From Flavobacteriales bacterium (lineage in GTDB: Bacteria > Bacteroidota > Bacteroidia > Flavobacteriales_F > PHOS-HE28), in NCBI GenBank assembly GCA_018057455.1, contig JAGPDT010000026.1, positions 1-41,388 on the forward strand: DNA of 41,388 nucleotides. The letters are read 5' to 3'. How positions within the stretch are numbered: position 1 is the first letter of the stretch; the number at the start of each line of letters is the position of its first letter. The notes below the pieces were generated by a model. That model saw only the letters and a list, made by a program, of their open reading frames with translations. It was not told the origin of the DNA and did not search any database. This document shows, one piece after another, positions 125 to 6,312 of this stretch. The translations under genes and the position numbers were made by a program.

Positions 125-164
125 GTTGAACGCTGTTCCGCGCTCTGGAGGAATGGCGTTCAAC
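125..164. other. 15-bp palindromic hairpin at the left end of the cassette array (possible landing site)
   Basis: Bases 125-139 pair with 150-164 without a gap (13 Watson-Crick pairs and two G.T pairs) around a 10-base loop. The ends are GTTGAACGC and GCGTTCAAC, so the hairpin carries the same GTT/AAC boxes as the cassette sites. Its right arm is the outer box of the first attC-like site. It may be the original target of the array, a minimal empty unit, or a terminator of the dehydrogenase gene that was used as a target. No T-run follows it. Confidence 0.7.
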
Positions 165-291
165 GTTTTGCCGCTTTGCGAAGGCGGGGATTTTCAGCAC
201 TAAACTTCATTAGATGCACAAATCTTGAATTTAGCACTTCACAGTCATAGAAGCACAAAACCCCCGCTTTTGCAAAACGGCTGTTATGTGC
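156..291 (-). other. attC-like recombination site 5 (left end of array)
   Basis: Imperfect palindrome downstream of the left CPBP gene. In cassette orientation (minus strand) R'' is GCACATAAC (283-291) and R' is GTTGAACGC (156-164). The inside is identical to site 4, but the outer R' box differs and matches the chromosomal hairpin at 125-164. That is expected if recombination cuts inside R' (G^TT), so that the bases beyond the cut come from the neighbouring DNA. Confidence 0.75.
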
Positions 292-302
292 TGCCAATTC
301 TA

Positions 303-1061
303 TCATTGAAGTTGAAATATTTGTTCTCCGATTATCATTGCTACGTGTGCGAATATGTGTCCTATAAATGCTGCTTCAAGACCTTTTTTCCAATATAACC
401 AGCCAAAAAATAGCCCTGCGATTGAATTTCCAATTAGTACATAAGTTAGTAATGATATTGTTGGATTTTGAACTGCATTAAAAACCACAGGAAAATGTCC
501 AACAGCAAAGAGAATACTTGCTGAAATAATACCTGTCCAATAAGTCGAATTGCCTAATTTCTTGGTTATTTTGAAAATTATCCAAACAACTAAAGTCATA
601 AAGCCAAATCGCATTAAAAGTTCTTCTGTAATTCCACCATAACCAAACCTTGCAATAGTCGTTATTTTGATTTTGTTTCCTATTTCAATAAACTCTTGAG
701 GAAGTGAAGTTTTGAAAATAAGTGCAGTTACTGTTGTCAAAATGCCTGTCAGCAAGCCAAGTAAAATACCAAACTTAATTTGCTCTATAAATTTTATTTT
801 AGGTTGTTCAATTTTCAATATTGACGAAATTGTCGGAACTGAAAAGCCAACCTTGTCAAATAGTAGCGTTCCAACCACAATCGCAATAAGCAATAAAATT
901 GTCGGGTTGATTAATACAAGATATTTAAGAGTTGCTGGTGATATTTTTTCTAAAACTTCCTTTGGTAAACTATCAAGTGGTATTGTAACTGTCAGCATTG
1001 TAAATACACCAAATAGTCCAAGAATAAATAATGCTATTCCTAATTTTAATTTTACATTCAT
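303..1061 (-). CDS. CPBP family intramembrane metalloprotease (left copy)
   Basis: A 252-residue, very hydrophobic membrane protein of the CPBP (CAAX protease/bacteriocin-processing) family. The family motifs are present: EExxxR as E146, E147 and R151 in GITEELLMR; FxxxH ending at H189 in FAVGH; and the third histidine motif with H235 and H239 in GHIFAH. These residues bind the catalytic metal inside the membrane. Bacterial members serve in bacteriocin maturation, self-immunity or membrane stress; the substrate here is unknown. The start chosen (MNVKLKLG) is the first ATG outside the recombination site; upstream in-frame ATGs lie inside or next to the attC-like site of the neighbour. It is AT-rich, unlike the flanking chromosome, and is followed at once by its own attC-like site. 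Confidence 0.9.
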   Translation of the reverse strand: MNVKLKLGIALFILGLFGVFTMLTVTIPLDSLPKEVLEKISPATLKYLVLINPTILLLIAIVVGTLLFDKVGFSVPTISSILKIEQPKIKFIEQIKFGILLGLLTGILTTVTALIFKTSLPQEFIEIGNKIKITTIARFGYGGITEELLMRFGFMTLVVWIIFKITKKLGNSTYWTGIISASILFAVGHFPVVFNAVQNPTISLLTYVLIGNSIAGLFFGWLYWKKGLEAAFIGHIFAHVAMIIGEQIFQLQ

Positions 1062-1100
1062 TTTATTGCTTTTTACTGTTCGTTCTGTCTTGTTTTGGTT

Positions 1101-1236
1101 GCACATAACGTTTTGCCGCTTTGCGAAGGCGGGGATTTTCAGCACTAAACTTCATTAGATGCACAAATCTTGAATTTAGCACTTCACAGTCATAGAAGCA
1201 CAAAACCCCCGCTTTTGCAAAACGGCTGTTATGTGC
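1101..1236 (-). other. attC-like recombination site 4
   Basis: Site between the two CPBP copies. R'' is GCACATAAC (top strand GTT box 1228-1236) and R' is GTTATGTGC (1101-1109), perfect complements. Inside, 20 left-arm bases from 1115 pair with right-arm bases ending at 1226: 17 Watson-Crick pairs, two G.T pairs and one C.A mismatch. The spacers between box and stem are asymmetric (four or five bases against one), like the unpaired central spacer of attC. The predicted cut is AA^CG at 1108/1109. Confidence 0.8.
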
Positions 1237-1247
1237 TGCCAATTCTA

Positions 1248-2006
1248 TCATTGAAGTTGAAATATTTGTTCTCCGATTATCATTGCTACGTGTGCGAATA
1301 TGTGTCCTATAAATGCTGCTTCAAGACCTTTTTTCCAATATAACCAGCCAAAAAATAGCCCTGCGATTGAATTTCCAATTAGTACATAAGTTAGTAATGA
1401 TATTGTTGGATTTTGAACTGCATTAAAAACCACAGGAAAATGTCCAACAGCAAAGAGAATACTTGCTGAAATAATACCTGTCCAATAAGTCGAATTGCCT
1501 AATTTCTTGGTTATTTTGAAAATTATCCAAACAACTAAAGTCATAAAGCCAAATCGCATTAAAAGTTCTTCTGTAATTCCACCATAACCAAACCTTGCAA
1601 TAGTCGTTATTTTGATTTTGTTTCCTATTTCAATAAACTCTTGAGGAAGTGAAGTTTTGAAAATAAGTGCAGTTACTGTTGTCAAAATGCCTGTCAGCAA
1701 GCCAAGTAAAATACCAAACTTAATTTGCTCTATAAATTTTATTTTAGGTTGTTCAATTTTCAATATTGACGAAATTGTCGGAACTGAAAAGCCAACCTTG
1801 TCAAATAGTAGCGTTCCAACCACAATCGCAATAAGCAATAAAATTGTCGGGTTGATTAATACAAGATATTTAAGAGTTGCTGGTGATATTTTTTCTAAAA
1901 CTTCCTTTGGTAAACTATCAAGTGGTATTGTAACTGTCAGCATTGTAAATACACCAAATAGTCCAAGAATAAATAATGCTATTCCTAATTTTAATTTTAC
2001 ATTCAT
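1248..2006 (-). CDS. CPBP family intramembrane metalloprotease (right copy)
   Basis: Protein identical to the product of 303-1061, with the same EELLMR, FAVGH and GHIFAH metal-binding motifs. It sits on the second copy of the 945-bp duplicated cassette. The neighbour upstream is the gene-free unit, so an extended reading frame starting at 2093 runs into that unit's attC-like site; the ATG at 2006 is preferred because it is the one shared by both copies outside any site. With every array gene on the minus strand and no clear promoter of its own, it probably depends on transcription from the recombinase side. Confidence 0.9.
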   Translation of the reverse strand: MNVKLKLGIALFILGLFGVFTMLTVTIPLDSLPKEVLEKISPATLKYLVLINPTILLLIAIVVGTLLFDKVGFSVPTISSILKIEQPKIKFIEQIKFGILLGLLTGILTTVTALIFKTSLPQEFIEIGNKIKITTIARFGYGGITEELLMRFGFMTLVVWIIFKITKKLGNSTYWTGIISASILFAVGHFPVVFNAVQNPTISLLTYVLIGNSIAGLFFGWLYWKKGLEAAFIGHIFAHVAMIIGEQIFQLQ

Positions 2007-2045
2007 TTTATTGCTTTTTACTGTTCGTTCTGTCTTGTTTTGGTT

Positions 2046-2175
2046 GCACATAACGGTTGCGAGCATGAGCAGTGCGGCTTCGGAGCCAACCAACTTTCAC
2101 TCACTACAAATTTAATAGGAACTACACACTTTCACAACCAAAAAACCAGCATTGCTTATGCTTGCTGTTAGCGGT
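2046..2175 (-). other. attC-like recombination site 3
   Basis: Site ending the gene-free unit. R'' is CCGCTAAC (top strand GTT box 2167-2174) and R' is GTTATGTGC (2046-2054). The inner stem pairs GCGAGCATGAGCAGTGC on the left with the right arm, with three G.T pairs on the top strand and no Watson-Crick mismatch other than these. The top strand is the bottom strand relative to the cassette genes, which is the strand that recombines in known integrons. Confidence 0.75.
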
Positions 2176-2482
2176 TCGGTGATGCCTGAAGCAAACTCTC
2201 TAATTCATTTTCAGATAAGAGCATAATGAATTAGTTTACAGCAAACTCTCTAATTCCTATTCAGATCAAAAACTCTAATTCACTTTAAGAGTAAACACTC
2301 TAATTCATTTTAAGAGCATGGCACCGAGTATTCAACTAAAGCAAACTCTCTAATTCATTTTAGGAGCATGGCACCGAGTCTTGATTTACCGAAAAATTAA
2401 GATAAGAGCACAAAACAAAAAAAAATCGAATTTTTATCCAATTTGTCAAACTTGTACGGAGCCGAGCAGCACTGACCGCTAA
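2054..2482 (-). other. Cassette-sized unit with no recognisable gene (about 429 bp)
   Basis: Bounded by predicted cut points in sites 3 and 2, with complementary end boxes CCGCTAAC and GTTAGCGG, so it behaves as a complete unit. The only reading frames are very short, for example an 18-codon minus-strand frame beginning MLLSENELESLL. It is filled by degenerate 50-bp repeats and an A-rich stretch at 2409-2428. On the minus strand a TTTG and a T-run ending in TTTG lie upstream of the repeats and could be a weak promoter. It may encode a small RNA, be the debris of repeated gene ends, or be cargo-free. Confidence 0.6.
2191..2390. repeat. Four degenerate 50-bp tandem repeats
   Basis: Copies start at 2191, 2241, 2291 and 2341, exactly 50 bp apart, each with the core AAACTCTCTAATTCATTTT or a close variant. 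A half-copy lies at about 2268. Units 3 and 4 also share AGCATGGCACCGAGT. Unit 1 holds an inverted pair, CTAATTCATT and AATGAATTAG, able to form a 10-bp hairpin. On the minus strand the core can be read as NELESLL followed in most copies by a stop, so the repeats may be decayed copies of a gene's 3' end. Confidence 0.75.
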
Positions 2483-2532
2483 CGACTACAATATACGCCG
2501 TTTTTTTATGGCGTATATTGAATGTTGTAAGC
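2477..2532 (-). other. attC-like recombination site 2 (short form)
   Basis: Compact site after the exported repeat-protein gene. R'' is GCTTACAAC (top strand GTT box 2524-2532) and R' is GTTAGCGG (top strand AAC box 2476-2483). The inner stem CAATATACGCC (2489-2499) pairs perfectly with GGCGTATATTG (2510-2520) around a T-rich loop. Box-to-stem spacers of five and three bases are unpaired. It keeps the architecture of the longer sites with no shared stem sequence, as expected of attC sites, which are recognised by shape. Confidence 0.8.
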
Positions 2533-2568
2533 TGTATTCTTTCTATTATTTTCTATTTTAAGTAACTC

Positions 2569-3210
2569 CTAAACATGAAAATTTATAAGCGGCAACCATC
2601 TTAAAAGTTTCGGATTATTCCCAGCATAATTTAATAAGCCAATCTGTAAGCCACGTAAATCATCAGTTCGATTGATAGCAGACACCGAAAGCCCGACTTG
2701 CTTTTTTGAATAAATGTGAAAAAGTCCGATTGCCATTCCTCTGACCTTCTCTGCACCAACAAATACACCCATGGCAAGCCCATTAATAACTCTGTTATCT
2801 ATGTTTGCATTCGGCGGTGCCACTGCAAATCCTGCGAAAACCCCATTCAAAGTATCGCTATCAATTCCAAAACTAACTCCAAGCCCATTCGATTTTTCAG
2901 AGTTTTGCCAAACAGGTGCCAGAGACAGTCCGTTTATCCTTGTCGTATGAGCAGCTAATCCGCCAATTTGAACTCCGTTAGTCTTTTCGGTCATTGCTAA
3001 AAATGAAATATTAATTCCATTAATTCTTTCAGTTTCATTGTCCAATAAATTAAATCTTAGTCCATTGTAATTGCTTGAATTACCGAAGCAAATACCCGAG
3101 GTTCTGCTGCCAATGGAAAGATATTTGTTTTTTAATGAGTCACTTTGTCCAAAGGAATTGTAGCAAATTAAAAGAAGTGATATCGTAGCCAACAACTTTC
3201 CCATATTCAT
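2569..3210 (-). CDS. Exported surface-repeat protein (LA_2272-like)
   Basis: A 213-residue protein with an N-terminal signal peptide (MNMGKLLATISLLLICYNSFG, cleavage probably before QSDSLKN). The rest is a run of short glycine-rich beta repeats with cores such as INGINIS, TNGVQIGG, INGLSLA, LNGVFAG and RGLQIGL, spaced about 20-25 residues, like the LA_2272-type surface repeat domain. It ends WLPLINFHV, a beta-strand ending typical of envelope proteins. Function is unknown; it probably sits in or on the outer membrane. It is AT-rich, fills its cassette almost fully and begins just inside site 1. Confidence 0.7.
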   Translation of the reverse strand: MNMGKLLATISLLLICYNSFGQSDSLKNKYLSIGSRTSGICFGNSSNYNGLRFNLLDNETERINGINISFLAMTEKTNGVQIGGLAAHTTRINGLSLAPVWQNSEKSNGLGVSFGIDSDTLNGVFAGFAVAPPNANIDNRVINGLAMGVFVGAEKVRGMAIGLFHIYSKKQVGLSVSAINRTDDLRGLQIGLLNYAGNNPKLLRWLPLINFHV

Positions 3211-3259
3211 AATCCCGAGTTATATTTTTTCATGAACTTTGGTTTCAGTTTCTGTAATA

Positions 3260-3395
3260 GCTTACAACGTTTTCGGGCTTGGCGAAGGTGGCGATTTTCA
3301 CCACAAATGTTGATGCGGAGAACCAAACTTTGATTAACCACAAATGTGTCTGCGGAGTACTGAACCGCCACTTTTGCCAAACCCGTGTTATCGGC
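3260..3395 (-). other. attC-like recombination site 1
   Basis: Site after the propeller lipoprotein gene. R'' is GCCGATAAC (top strand GTT box 3387-3395) and R' is GTTGTAAGC (top strand AAC box 3260-3268). The arms align gaplessly with those of site 4. The two sites differ at six left-arm and six right-arm positions, and each change is matched by its pairing partner. Stem pairing is 17 Watson-Crick, two G.T and one C.A in the same places as in site 4. Confidence 0.85.
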
Positions 3396-3412
3396 TGTTC
3401 TTCTTTCTGTCG

Positions 3413-4501
3413 TCATGGGTTAAATTTTTCAAATGTTTTTCCGTTGAACTTAAATGTTCCGTTGTCAGTTGTCCCAAGCCATAATTCGCCTTGATTGTCC
3501 TTATACATTGAAACTAAATTAACGTCTTTCGTGCTGTCTTTAACTGAATAATTTGTAATGTTCTTGCCGTCATATTTATAAACTCCCTTGTCCCATGTGG
3601 TCAGCCAAATATTTCCGTTATTGTCCTCTATGATGTATGAATAGTAAACGTATTCGTCACCGCCAAATATTTTTGCATCTCCAATTCCGTTGGTCTTTTG
3701 ATATTGAAGTCTGTCGCTTTTTGTTGTTTTGTCAAAGTCAAAAATATAACGATGCCAAGTGTTGCAAAACCAAAAACCACCTTCCTTGTCTTCAAATATT
3801 GAACGAATACCAAATGTTCCACCGTTTAAACCTATTGTTAAATCTTCTTCATACATCCATTTGATGGATTGTCCGTCAAAACGGCAAGCACCAAAAACTG
3901 AAGTGCCAAACCACATTGCACCTTTTCGGTCTTTATAAATACAATAGACTTCATAAGGACTAAAAAATGGATTGATGCCTTTTGCATAAATTTCATCGTG
4001 TAGGTAATGTTTTGGGAATTCTAATTGAAACAGATTTTTTCCGTCAAAGCGATAAGGTCCGTTTTCGTTTCTTTTGCCCAATATGTTAAACCACAAATCA
4101 TTTGGTTCTAATTTCCAGTCTTTACTTTTTATAGGTTGCAAAGTCGTAAATTGTTTTCCGTCAAATTTGTTGATACCACCAAGCGTTGAGAAGAATATAT
4201 TGCCAAATTTATCTTCTTGAATTTGTCTTATACTATCGTTGCATAGTCCGTCTTTGGTCGTAAAATTGACAATTGTTTTGCCGTCATAACGATACACACC
4301 TTCGCCATTACTCCCAAACCAATAGTTGTTCTTTTTGTCTTGAAACACATACCACAAATGGTCGCCAAGTTTATTTACGGTGTCGCCTTGTGCAATGTTT
4401 TGGCTTAAATCGTCAGAGTTTGATGCTTTATTTTTTGTCTGTCCGTTGCACGATGTCAATATGGTCAATATGCTAAAAAATAAGATTGTTCTTAACTTCA
4501 T
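3413..4501 (-). CDS. Lipoprotein with two-component-regulator propeller repeats
   Basis: A 362-residue predicted lipoprotein. The start MKLRTILFF gives a signal peptide with lipobox ILTSC and lipidated C18; the longer frame from 4525 begins inside the neighbouring site. The body is made of Reg_prop-type blades with motifs such as NYWFGSNGEGVYRYDGK, GAMWFGTSVFGACRFDGQ, NIWLTTWDKGVYKYDGK and ELWLGTTDNGTFKFNGK, the blades found in the periplasmic sensor of hybrid two-component systems. Here no membrane helix, kinase or DNA-binding domain follows, so it is a free-standing beta-propeller. It is the first cassette after the recombinase. Its ligand is unknown. Confidence 0.85.
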   Translation of the reverse strand: MKLRTILFFSILTILTSCNGQTKNKASNSDDLSQNIAQGDTVNKLGDHLWYVFQDKKNNYWFGSNGEGVYRYDGKTIVNFTTKDGLCNDSIRQIQEDKFGNIFFSTLGGINKFDGKQFTTLQPIKSKDWKLEPNDLWFNILGKRNENGPYRFDGKNLFQLEFPKHYLHDEIYAKGINPFFSPYEVYCIYKDRKGAMWFGTSVFGACRFDGQSIKWMYEEDLTIGLNGGTFGIRSIFEDKEGGFWFCNTWHRYIFDFDKTTKSDRLQYQKTNGIGDAKIFGGDEYVYYSYIIEDNNGNIWLTTWDKGVYKYDGKNITNYSVKDSTKDVNLVSMYKDNQGELWLGTTDNGTFKFNGKTFEKFNP

Positions 4502-4541
4502 TGTCTGTCTGTTTATTGTTAGCATGGTCTGTAATAGAATA

Positions 4542-4658
4542 GCCGATAACTACTTGTTGCCGCATTGCGTGAATTTCCTGACTTGGACAAGCGCCCCTAT
4601 TGCGTCAACATGCCCACGGTGGGACAAATAGCGCAATGGGCTGTTACAGGTCCAAGTC
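4542..4658 (-). other. attI-like/attC-like site at the recombinase end of the array
   Basis: Junction between recombinase and first cassette. R' is GTTATCGGC (top strand AAC box 4542-4550). The opposite box, CCTGTAAC in cassette orientation (4643-4650), overlaps the recombinase stop codon. CCGCATTGCG (4560-4569) pairs with CGCAATGGG (4632-4640) with one bulged base, a hallmark of attC L boxes. CGCAATGGG can instead pair with CCCTATTGCG (4595-4604), inside an outer stem GACTTGGAC/GTCCAAGTC (4580-4588 with 4650-4658). No partner for CCTGTAAC exists on the far side of the recombinase, so this is better seen as the anchored attI equivalent than as the end of a mobile unit. Confidence 0.7.
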
Positions 4659-5822
4659 ATCCAATGGGCTGCGAATCTTGCCGAGGGCTTTGGTGCTTAC
4701 GTGGGTGTAGATCTCCGTGGTCTTGCTCGAGCTATGCCCCAACAGCGCCTGGATGTAGCGAAGGTCGGTTCCCTTCTCCAGGAGGTGGGTGGCAAAGCTG
4801 TGCCGTAAGGTATGCACGGTGGCCGGTTTTGCAATGCCTGCCTTTTCCTTGGCCCGATGGAAGAGGGCCTGCACGCTGCGAGCGGAGTAGGCTCCTCCGT
4901 TCGGACCTTCAAATAAGTGGCGCACCGGTTTGAATGCTTCGAGATACGCATCAACGGTGGCCATGGCTTTGGGGCTTAGCAAGGTGATGCGGTCCTTGTT
5001 GCCTTTGCCTCCCCGGACCAGCAGTTGTTGCCGGTCGGTTACAAGGTCCCTCCGTTCAAGGCCGATCAGTTCACTGAGCCTCAAACCGGCGGAGTAGATC
5101 AGCATCAGGATACAGCGGTGCTTCAGGTTGTCCACGGAGCGTAGGAGGGAGGCCACCTCGGTTTCGCTCAGCACGGTGGGCAGCTTGCGTTCTTGGCGCG
5201 GCCGCTCAATAAAGGTGACCCGTTTGGCATCGCCCACCACATTCATGTAGTAGTAGCGCACCGCGTTCACCACTTGGTTCAGGTGGCTGTTGCTCACTTT
5301 CCGTGCGGTGGCCATGTGGTGCTGGTAGGTCTCCATATCCTCCGTGCGGATGTCGTTGGGGTGCTTCGCGGGAAAATGCAGGAAGAAATGCTTGGTGGCA
5401 TTCAAGTAGGCATCGATGGTGCGCGGGCTATACCGGGCGATCTCCAGTTTTCGCTGCATGAGCCGCAGGGCTTCCACCTGCACGGCTGCCAAGGGCGCTG
5501 TATGTGGCCGGCTCGGCTTGCTGGACGGAAGGCTGTCAGGTGGTGTCACAGATCGGCGAGGGGCATTGCCTTTTTTGCCGAACAGGGCATCCGCATTCAC
5601 CCATGCTTGGCCCTTGTATGCGGCGAAGATGGATTTCATGCTGGCGCTGCCATTTTCCATATACCAACACCCATTGGTTTTGCTCCACTGGGCACCGATG
5701 CCCTTGGCAATGGCGATCAAGCCGCTGTCATACGGGAAGCGCATGGCGATGCGGCGCTGGCCGTTGTGGTCCAGTGCTTCCAGTGTCACAGTTTTCCGTT
5801 CGACGGCTTTTTCGTCGGGCAT
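4644..5822 (-). CDS. Tyrosine recombinase (XerC/D-like) next to the cassette array
   Basis: A 392-residue site-specific recombinase. An N-terminal extension of about 110 residues carries the FPYD and WSKTNGCWYM motifs seen in Bacteroidota integrases. A core-binding domain follows (about 118-200), then the catalytic domain with a full residue set: R248 (GLRLSE), K273 (GGKGNKD), H337 and R340 (HTLRHSF), H363 (LGHSS) and Tyr372 (EIYTHV). The tail RSPLDDLDL resembles the RSPLD end of IntI, but the insertion between the lysine and HxxR motifs that marks integron integrases is missing. It is co-oriented with the cassettes, so its transcript can run into them. The stop codon lies inside the attI-like site; the start lies 15 bp from a MITE. 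Likely role: cassette integration and excision. Confidence 0.9.
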   Translation of the reverse strand: MPDEKAVERKTVTLEALDHNGQRRIAMRFPYDSGLIAIAKGIGAQWSKTNGCWYMENGSASMKSIFAAYKGQAWVNADALFGKKGNAPRRSVTPPDSLPSSKPSRPHTAPLAAVQVEALRLMQRKLEIARYSPRTIDAYLNATKHFFLHFPAKHPNDIRTEDMETYQHHMATARKVSNSHLNQVVNAVRYYYMNVVGDAKRVTFIERPRQERKLPTVLSETEVASLLRSVDNLKHRCILMLIYSAGLRLSELIGLERRDLVTDRQQLLVRGGKGNKDRITLLSPKAMATVDAYLEAFKPVRHLFEGPNGGAYSARSVQALFHRAKEKAGIAKPATVHTLRHSFATHLLEKGTDLRYIQALLGHSSSKTTEIYTHVSTKALGKIRSPLDDLDL

Positions 5823-6278: not shown

Positions 6279-6312
6279 CACCTATTCGCCGCAATTCTGC
6301 GGCGAATAGGTG
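6279..6312. repeat. 15-bp perfect hairpin downstream of murF
   Basis: CACCTATTCGCCGCA (6279-6293) pairs perfectly with TGCGGCGAATAGGTG (6298-6312) around the loop ATTC. It lies 39 bp beyond the murF stop and just where the Fic similarity ends. There is no T-run on either side, so it is not a typical intrinsic terminator. It may be a deletion junction or a small palindromic repeat. Confidence 0.7.

Follow-up and report, generated by a model that had tools for sequence, protein, structure and literature searches.

In a Flavobacteriales genome of 130 contigs (G000), we identified a gene-cassette array that occupies one end of contig C30, the whole of which (41,388 bp) was analyzed here as a single window. 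A tyrosine recombinase gene is followed, on the minus strand, by an attI-like segment, five cassette units and a distal palindrome. To judge from its sequence, this locus is very probably an integron-type gene-capture platform, composed of a recombinase, an attI and cassettes that each end in a hairpin recombination site, and the array is apparently functional. The system appears integron-like in its working, yet it lies outside the IntI family by two tested defining features.

The cassettes are delimited by complementary boxes. A preliminary description of this DNA had named a series of box pairs, and every one of them is present: GTTGAACGC (125-133) with GCGTTCAAC (156-164); GTTATGTGC (283-291) with GCACATAAC (1101-1109), repeated at 1228-1236 and 2046-2054; GTTAGCGG (2167-2174) with CCGCTAAC (2476-2483); GTTGTAAGC (2524-2532) with GCTTACAAC (3260-3268); and GTTATCGGC (3387-3395) with GCCGATAAC (4542-4550). 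That description had read the array on the top strand. The boxes and units stand, but the true reading direction is along the minus strand, outward from the recombinase, with the own site of each unit on its low-coordinate side. A chain of six 8-mer box pairs was found in the first 9 kb, and none of 200 shuffled versions of the first 5 kb gave a chain longer than three.

The rule that each unit opens with the complement of the R'' box of its own site, also proposed earlier, was upheld in the window, where all four pairs between detected sites match at 6/6 variable bases. Because exact box chains alone were too weak in relatives, we used a combined hairpin and box search there, which gave 90 hairpin sites on 39 stretches around recombinase homologs and hence 46 consecutive pairs. 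All six variable bases matched in 30 of these 46, compared with 3/177 non-consecutive and 3/89 within-site pairings. Box-matched units beside the same recombinase proved common in other genomes: genome G138 has 14 sites beside its recombinase, and all 13 units match at 9/9 box bases, as do all 10 units between the 11 sites of genome G533. As in integrons, then, cassettes are bounded by AAC/GTT boxes, with an R'' that matches the cassette's own start. The parts of the window array, in order from the recombinase, are these:

4644..5822, minus strand: tyrosine recombinase, 392 amino acids, 3' end toward the array
4548..4646, minus strand: attI-like site, from the recombinase stop to the first cassette; sister species share it up to ..AAGTA, immediately before GTT, and differ beyond
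3268..4549, minus strand: cassette unit 1; open reading frame (ORF) 3413-4525, with two-component regulator propeller repeats (Pfam PF07494)
3260-3395: hairpin site of unit 1, 103.5 bits by our site model (R1)
2483..3267, minus strand: cassette unit 2; ORF 2569-3210, a small LA_2272/VC2662-like surface protein (NCBIfam)
2476-2532: short hairpin site of unit 2; fold z -6.45 on the plus strand, no match by model R1
2054..2482, minus strand: cassette unit 3; internal direct repeats, no ORF of at least 60 amino acids; boxes GTTAGCGGT/ACCGCTAAC, 6/6 match
2046-2175: hairpin site of unit 3, 71.2 bits (R1)
1109..2053, minus strand: cassette unit 4; CAAX/Rce1-like protease ORF (Pfam PF02517)
1101-1236: hairpin site of unit 4, 102.9 bits (R1)
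164..1108, minus strand: cassette unit 5; exact 945-bp copy of unit 4 with the same CAAX protease gene
156-291: hairpin site of unit 5, 101 bits (R1)
125..164, no strand assigned: distal end, a 40-nt palindrome (GTTGAACGC..GCGTTCAAC) that recurs where arrays end within the genus

Units 4 and 5 form an exact tandem duplication in which identity starts and stops at the shared AAC of the AAC/GTT boxes, the predicted G^TT point, which is the pattern expected from duplication at the level of the cassette. No near DNA relative of this CAAX cassette was found in the 147 genomes searched. An all-against-all BLAST of the arrays likewise returned few cassettes in common, because the cargo is mostly unique. 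The gene-less unit 3 contains imperfect 25/50-bp direct repeats (AGCAAACTCTCTAATTCATTTT) at 2185-2370.

The pair at 125-164 had previously been taken for a cassette, and we rejected this assignment. The same palindrome closes the arrays of the sister species G042, G004 and G010b, and in near-perfect form those of G008 and G017, with no hairpin site after it; because it recurs at far array ends, we regard it as a fixed end rather than a unit. Outside the array, the window also contains a perfect 15-bp inverted repeat with a 4-nt loop, CACCTATTCGCCGCA/TGCGGCGAATAGGTG, at 6279-6312.

Comparison of relatives places cassette insertion at the same box. In about two dozen arrays the matching GTT box of the first unit lies 47-250 nt past the recombinase stop. 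We compared 20 attI regions from the genus. In 32 pairs, identity across the 40 nt that precede GTT was 60% or more (mean 0.83) and dropped to 0.37 across the 40 nt that follow, and four pairs showed the reverse (0.15-0.35 before, 0.71-0.97 after). Gene order is therefore not fixed among related genomes, and it breaks at GTT. These comparisons point to an attI beside the recombinase and to cassette insertion at G^TT, as in integrons, and together with the box-matched units elsewhere they bear out the earlier suggestion that this Bacteroidota genome holds true mobile cassettes which obey the rule known from integrons. Both outcomes that the earlier description had named as refuting it, genes in constant order with breakpoints elsewhere and a lack of box-matched units beside this recombinase in other genomes, are contradicted. 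Of 54 cassette ORFs, 45 are directed away from attI.

Dispersed hairpin repeats could in principle shuffle genes by homologous recombination, with no site-specific recombination, and one site (S5) does occur at 88-97% identity in many genomes. Box pairing, however, tracks the cassette and not the site, the GTT breakpoints fall between unrelated sites (tet(X), discussed below, is an example), and the box chains of 10 and 13 units are perfect; we therefore consider this explanation exceedingly improbable.

The sites themselves have a constant architecture. On the bottom strand, that is, the strand opposite the reading direction, the layout is NNNNNNAACG, spacer, 19-bp helix, loop, helix, TGTTNNNNNN. 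The site is about 124 nt long, similar in length to the Vibrio cholerae repeat (VCR). Its long helix has 18 covarying pairs, and between boxes and helix lies an asymmetric unpaired spacer, usually of 5 nt versus 1 nt. A scan of 80 named loci returned 44 sites downstream of the recombinase on the array's bottom strand and one on the other strand there; upstream there was one site on each strand, and shuffled sequences gave none. In a strand-neutral scan, the longer spacer was on the 5' side in 67 sites and on the opposite side in two, and the non-Watson-Crick pairs comprised 110 G.T and 40 C.A. Across 45 sites, 95.1% of alignment cells were paired (35-52% with the partner slid), the covariation score was 0.684 against at most 0.152, and 19 of 24 pairs had changes on both sides.

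As for integron attC sites, covariation and polarity support a hairpin, and they suggest a preferred bottom strand. The conserved G.T wobbles, at one inner pair in 43/45 sites and at the pair adjoining the boxes in 45/45, would turn into C.A mismatches if the opposite strand folded, and they thus favor folding of the bottom strand; these wobbles may set the choice of strand. Extrahelical bases, a feature of attC, are mostly lacking: a wider search with the model, whose E-values are rough, found no insertions or deletions in the arms of 58 of 85 matches.

Modules exchanged at dif-like (pdif) sites by XerC/XerD acting on double-stranded DNA offer another reading, inasmuch as the recombinase is Xer-like and resistance modules of Acinetobacter plasmids use pdif sites (PMC7530245). 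Those sites are 28-bp double-strand sites, in contrast with hairpins of about 124 nt that have 18 covarying long-helix pairs and strand polarity, and we give this possibility almost no weight.

The recombinase has an N-terminal region of about 80 amino acids that is partly DUF5710-like, a SAM-like core-binding domain and a catalytic domain in which R248, K276, H337, R340, H363 and Y372 are all intact. Among curated models, NF040815 (XerA-like) fits it best. The predicted structure (predicted local distance difference test score, 82) matches XerA and IntI4, and the best fold matches of the catalytic part are among XerA and XerC/XerD (PDB 5hxy, 4a8e, 1a0p). Residues 1-81 (window 5580-5822, minus strand) carry a DUF5710-like W..xCWY motif and are well predicted, with no clear fold match: a fold search of the PDB with this domain alone returned nothing significant, and a weak match to SMARCAL1 HARP (probability 0.44) was not used. 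We propose this domain as a candidate for hairpin or single-strand binding.

Could we nevertheless be dealing with a canonical integron, in which IntI has simply diverged or shed the insertion? The IntI model TIGR02249 does match at 210.5 bits, the IntI4 structure 2a3v is among the best fold matches, and both the AAC/GTT boxes and the cut rule are those of attC. That score, however, falls below the model's cut-off of 265 bits. The IntI-specific insertion (about 41 amino acids, near patch III) is absent from the window recombinase and from all 22 of the relatives aligned: in a two-block alignment with IntI4, 33 amino acids lie between query positions 285 and 318, compared with 76 in IntI4, and 64-66 amino acids separate the lysine loop from HxLRH in Bacteroidota members, against 106-107 in IntI. 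In a tree built by quick search, from which L001 was omitted for want of a clean ORF, true IntI proteins form one clade that excludes the window family (Shimodaira-Hasegawa-like approximate likelihood ratio support, 99), with weak deeper branches. The canonical attC sites of the phylum are also bulged and score 14-31 bits with our site model, against up to 118 for its own sites. We consider this reading very unlikely, and because the insertion is absent, "classical integron" would be the wrong label.

The distinction can be drawn within a single phylum. True IntI proteins scoring above the TIGR02249 cut-off occur in 84 of 296 genomes of the phylum and in 1 of about 73 in the window's class, the one exception being G177; the earlier statement that classical integrons are rare in Bacteroidota thus holds for the class and fails for the phylum overall. 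The weak site-model matches at true IntI loci of other classes are canonical attC sites, with two or three single-base bulges in one arm of the bottom strand, and they make the two site types distinguishable. A scanner allowing one bulge found nothing at six true-IntI loci, probably because of those two or three bulges, and the attC sites there were recovered through the weak R1 matches. At the true IntI locus L177 the gene has its array on the 5' side, in the customary divergent arrangement, whereas most members of the window family have their 3' end toward the array (G123 and G084 look divergent by coordinates).

Sites of the window type (E <= 1e-8) were found in 111 of 147 genomes of the class and in 63 of 118 genomes of the phylum; restriction to one class was accordingly rejected, as sites occur in other classes. 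They are present in 75 of 78 genomes with a close recombinase homolog and in 36 of 69 without one (Fisher 2e-10, with kinship uncorrected). These 36 genomes, the presence of true IntI elsewhere in the phylum and the recombinase-less arrays of the window's own genome (sites at C95:68578-71770 and C56:17098-18174, with a further site at C104:52060, all on contigs with no recombinase) lend something to the idea that real cassettes and sites are moved in trans by host XerC/XerD or a true IntI, with the adjoining recombinase as a passenger. We nonetheless judge it quite unlikely, given the strong co-occurrence, the fixed position of the array, whose start lies 47-250 nt from the recombinase stop in many families, and the near absence of true IntI from the class; many recombinase homologs, moreover, lie near contig ends with their 3' end to the break, as expected beside repeats.

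Known resistance genes, tet(X), erm(F) and blaOXA-347 among them, belong to the exchangeable cassettes of this system. The "xerD"/TnpF gene that neighbors tet(X3)/tet(X5) in plasmids of Acinetobacter (L185, L186:5001-7130, L187) is a 5'-truncated member of the window family, with 50% identity to residues 146-392 of the window recombinase, and tet(X) is there the first cassette after an attI-like segment and starts exactly at a GTT box. Five loci share the first 60 bases of the tet(X) unit, which open precisely at GTT, although the sequences upstream are of four unrelated kinds. In G533 and on a plasmid from Sphingobacterium, the boxes of tet(X) pair at 9/9 bases and a hairpin site flanks it on either side. 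The G533 array (C2; L195:3571-13420) comprises 10 perfectly boxed units that include a tet-efflux-like major facilitator superfamily (MFS) protein, erm(F), aadS, a small multidrug resistance (SMR) protein, tet(X) and catB; the MFS and SMR proteins score under curated cut-offs and the other four over them. Within this array, erm(F) and catB run against the reading direction. The erm(F) unit has identical ends in six plasmid settings (L203-L208: Bacteroides fragilis, Parabacteroides, Riemerella, Myroides, Flagellimonas and Salmonella), and is interrupted in B. fragilis and Salmonella. On a Myroides plasmid, the box pairs match at 9/9 bases for blaOXA-347 and 8/9 for blaMYO-1.

Several observations weigh against reading these loci as integron-type platforms. 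Of the 46 consecutive box pairs, 16 are imperfect; many of these span gaps long enough for a further site, and the imperfect pairs probably often hide a missed one. An extra arm base, at various places, is present in 19 of the 85 model matches, and the site model and alignment were themselves built from scanner hits that required an ungapped stem. For many arrays the contig lacks a recombinase, and the sites there may be served in trans or by a different enzyme. A Pc promoter is merely hinted at: the motif TAnnTTTG points toward the array in 8 of 32 attI segments (1.3 expected, none on the other strand) and does not occur in the attI segment of the window. At Acinetobacter tet(X3), only half of the following site is left and the boxes mismatch, which makes the tet(X) unit there a fossil.

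With these points weighed, we still favor an integron-type platform, for which we propose the following mechanism. The bottom strand of a cassette site would fold into a long hairpin, and the recombinase would bind the AAC/GTT boxes flanking the asymmetric unpaired spacer, cut at G^TT and join the site to attI or to another site. Cassettes would excise as circles and enter beside the recombinase in one orientation. In place of extrahelical bases, the conserved G.T wobbles and the asymmetric spacer would determine which strand is used. The units, the box rule, the GTT breakpoints, the covariation and polarity of the hairpins and their co-occurrence with the recombinase are evident in the sequences; from these patterns we infer the single-stranded substrate, the exact cut and catalysis by the adjoining recombinase.

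Such a system shares with the chromosomal integron of Vibrio cholerae and with class 1 integrons a recombinase beside attI, cassettes mostly of one ORF pointing away from it, an imperfect-palindrome site with AAC/GTT boxes in each cassette, the G^TT cut rule and bottom-strand polarity. It differs in that its recombinase lacks the IntI insertion, falls outside the IntI clade and is usually transcribed toward the array rather than divergently, and in its sites, which mostly have conserved G.T wobbles instead of extrahelical bases. XerA and XerC/XerD (NF040815) are the nearest curated family, but the window family is linked to cassette arrays, has an extra N-terminal domain and is associated with hairpin sites, not dif. 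Within the "integron-like" subgroup of tyrosine recombinases of Smyshlyaev et al. 2021 (PMC8138268), insertion-less members come with no described cassette arrays or hairpin sites in the part of that report at hand. The "xerD"-tet(X3)-res-ISCR2 unit of Acinetobacter plasmids shares the recombinase family and tet(X) as first cassette, and was published as an ISCR2-associated context rather than an integron-type cassette (PMC7530245, PMC7494873). We found no description of the system in the open-licence full-text literature, the scope of our search, with subscription papers and preprints outside it. IntegronFinder needs an IntI domain for an integrase call (PMC9668308), so such arrays would not be called complete integrons.

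Taken further, we think it somewhat probable that this is a parallel system that did not arise from IntI, in which a Xer-type recombinase works on folded single strands with neither the IntI domain nor extrahelical bases, and that it serves as a general cassette exchange of Bacteroidota and first mobilized tet(X), erm(F), aadS, catB and a number of beta-lactamase genes, which transposons and integrative and conjugative elements (ICEs) later took up. The surroundings of tet(X) have been published as ICEs, ISCR2 and xerD, with the contexts in Flavobacteriaceae and Acinetobacter left unmatched, and catB and ant(6)-I clusters have been noted beside tet(X2) in Flavobacteriaceae (PMC7494873, PMC7530245 for the former; PMC7494873 for the latter).

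Integron function has been described as requiring the IntI insertion, and strand selection as relying in part on extrahelical bases (PMC8138268, PMC9024848, PMC8946536). A system that spans a phylum and does without both would be a natural experiment on the requirements of single-strand recombination. The system could likewise explain how the tet(X) and erm(F) units came by their boundaries, in settings that range from Bacteroides to plasmids of Acinetobacter and Salmonella, and how clusters such as catB and ant(6)-I at tet(X2) in Flavobacteriaceae (PMC7494873) arose, and it gives a means of surveying such cargo.

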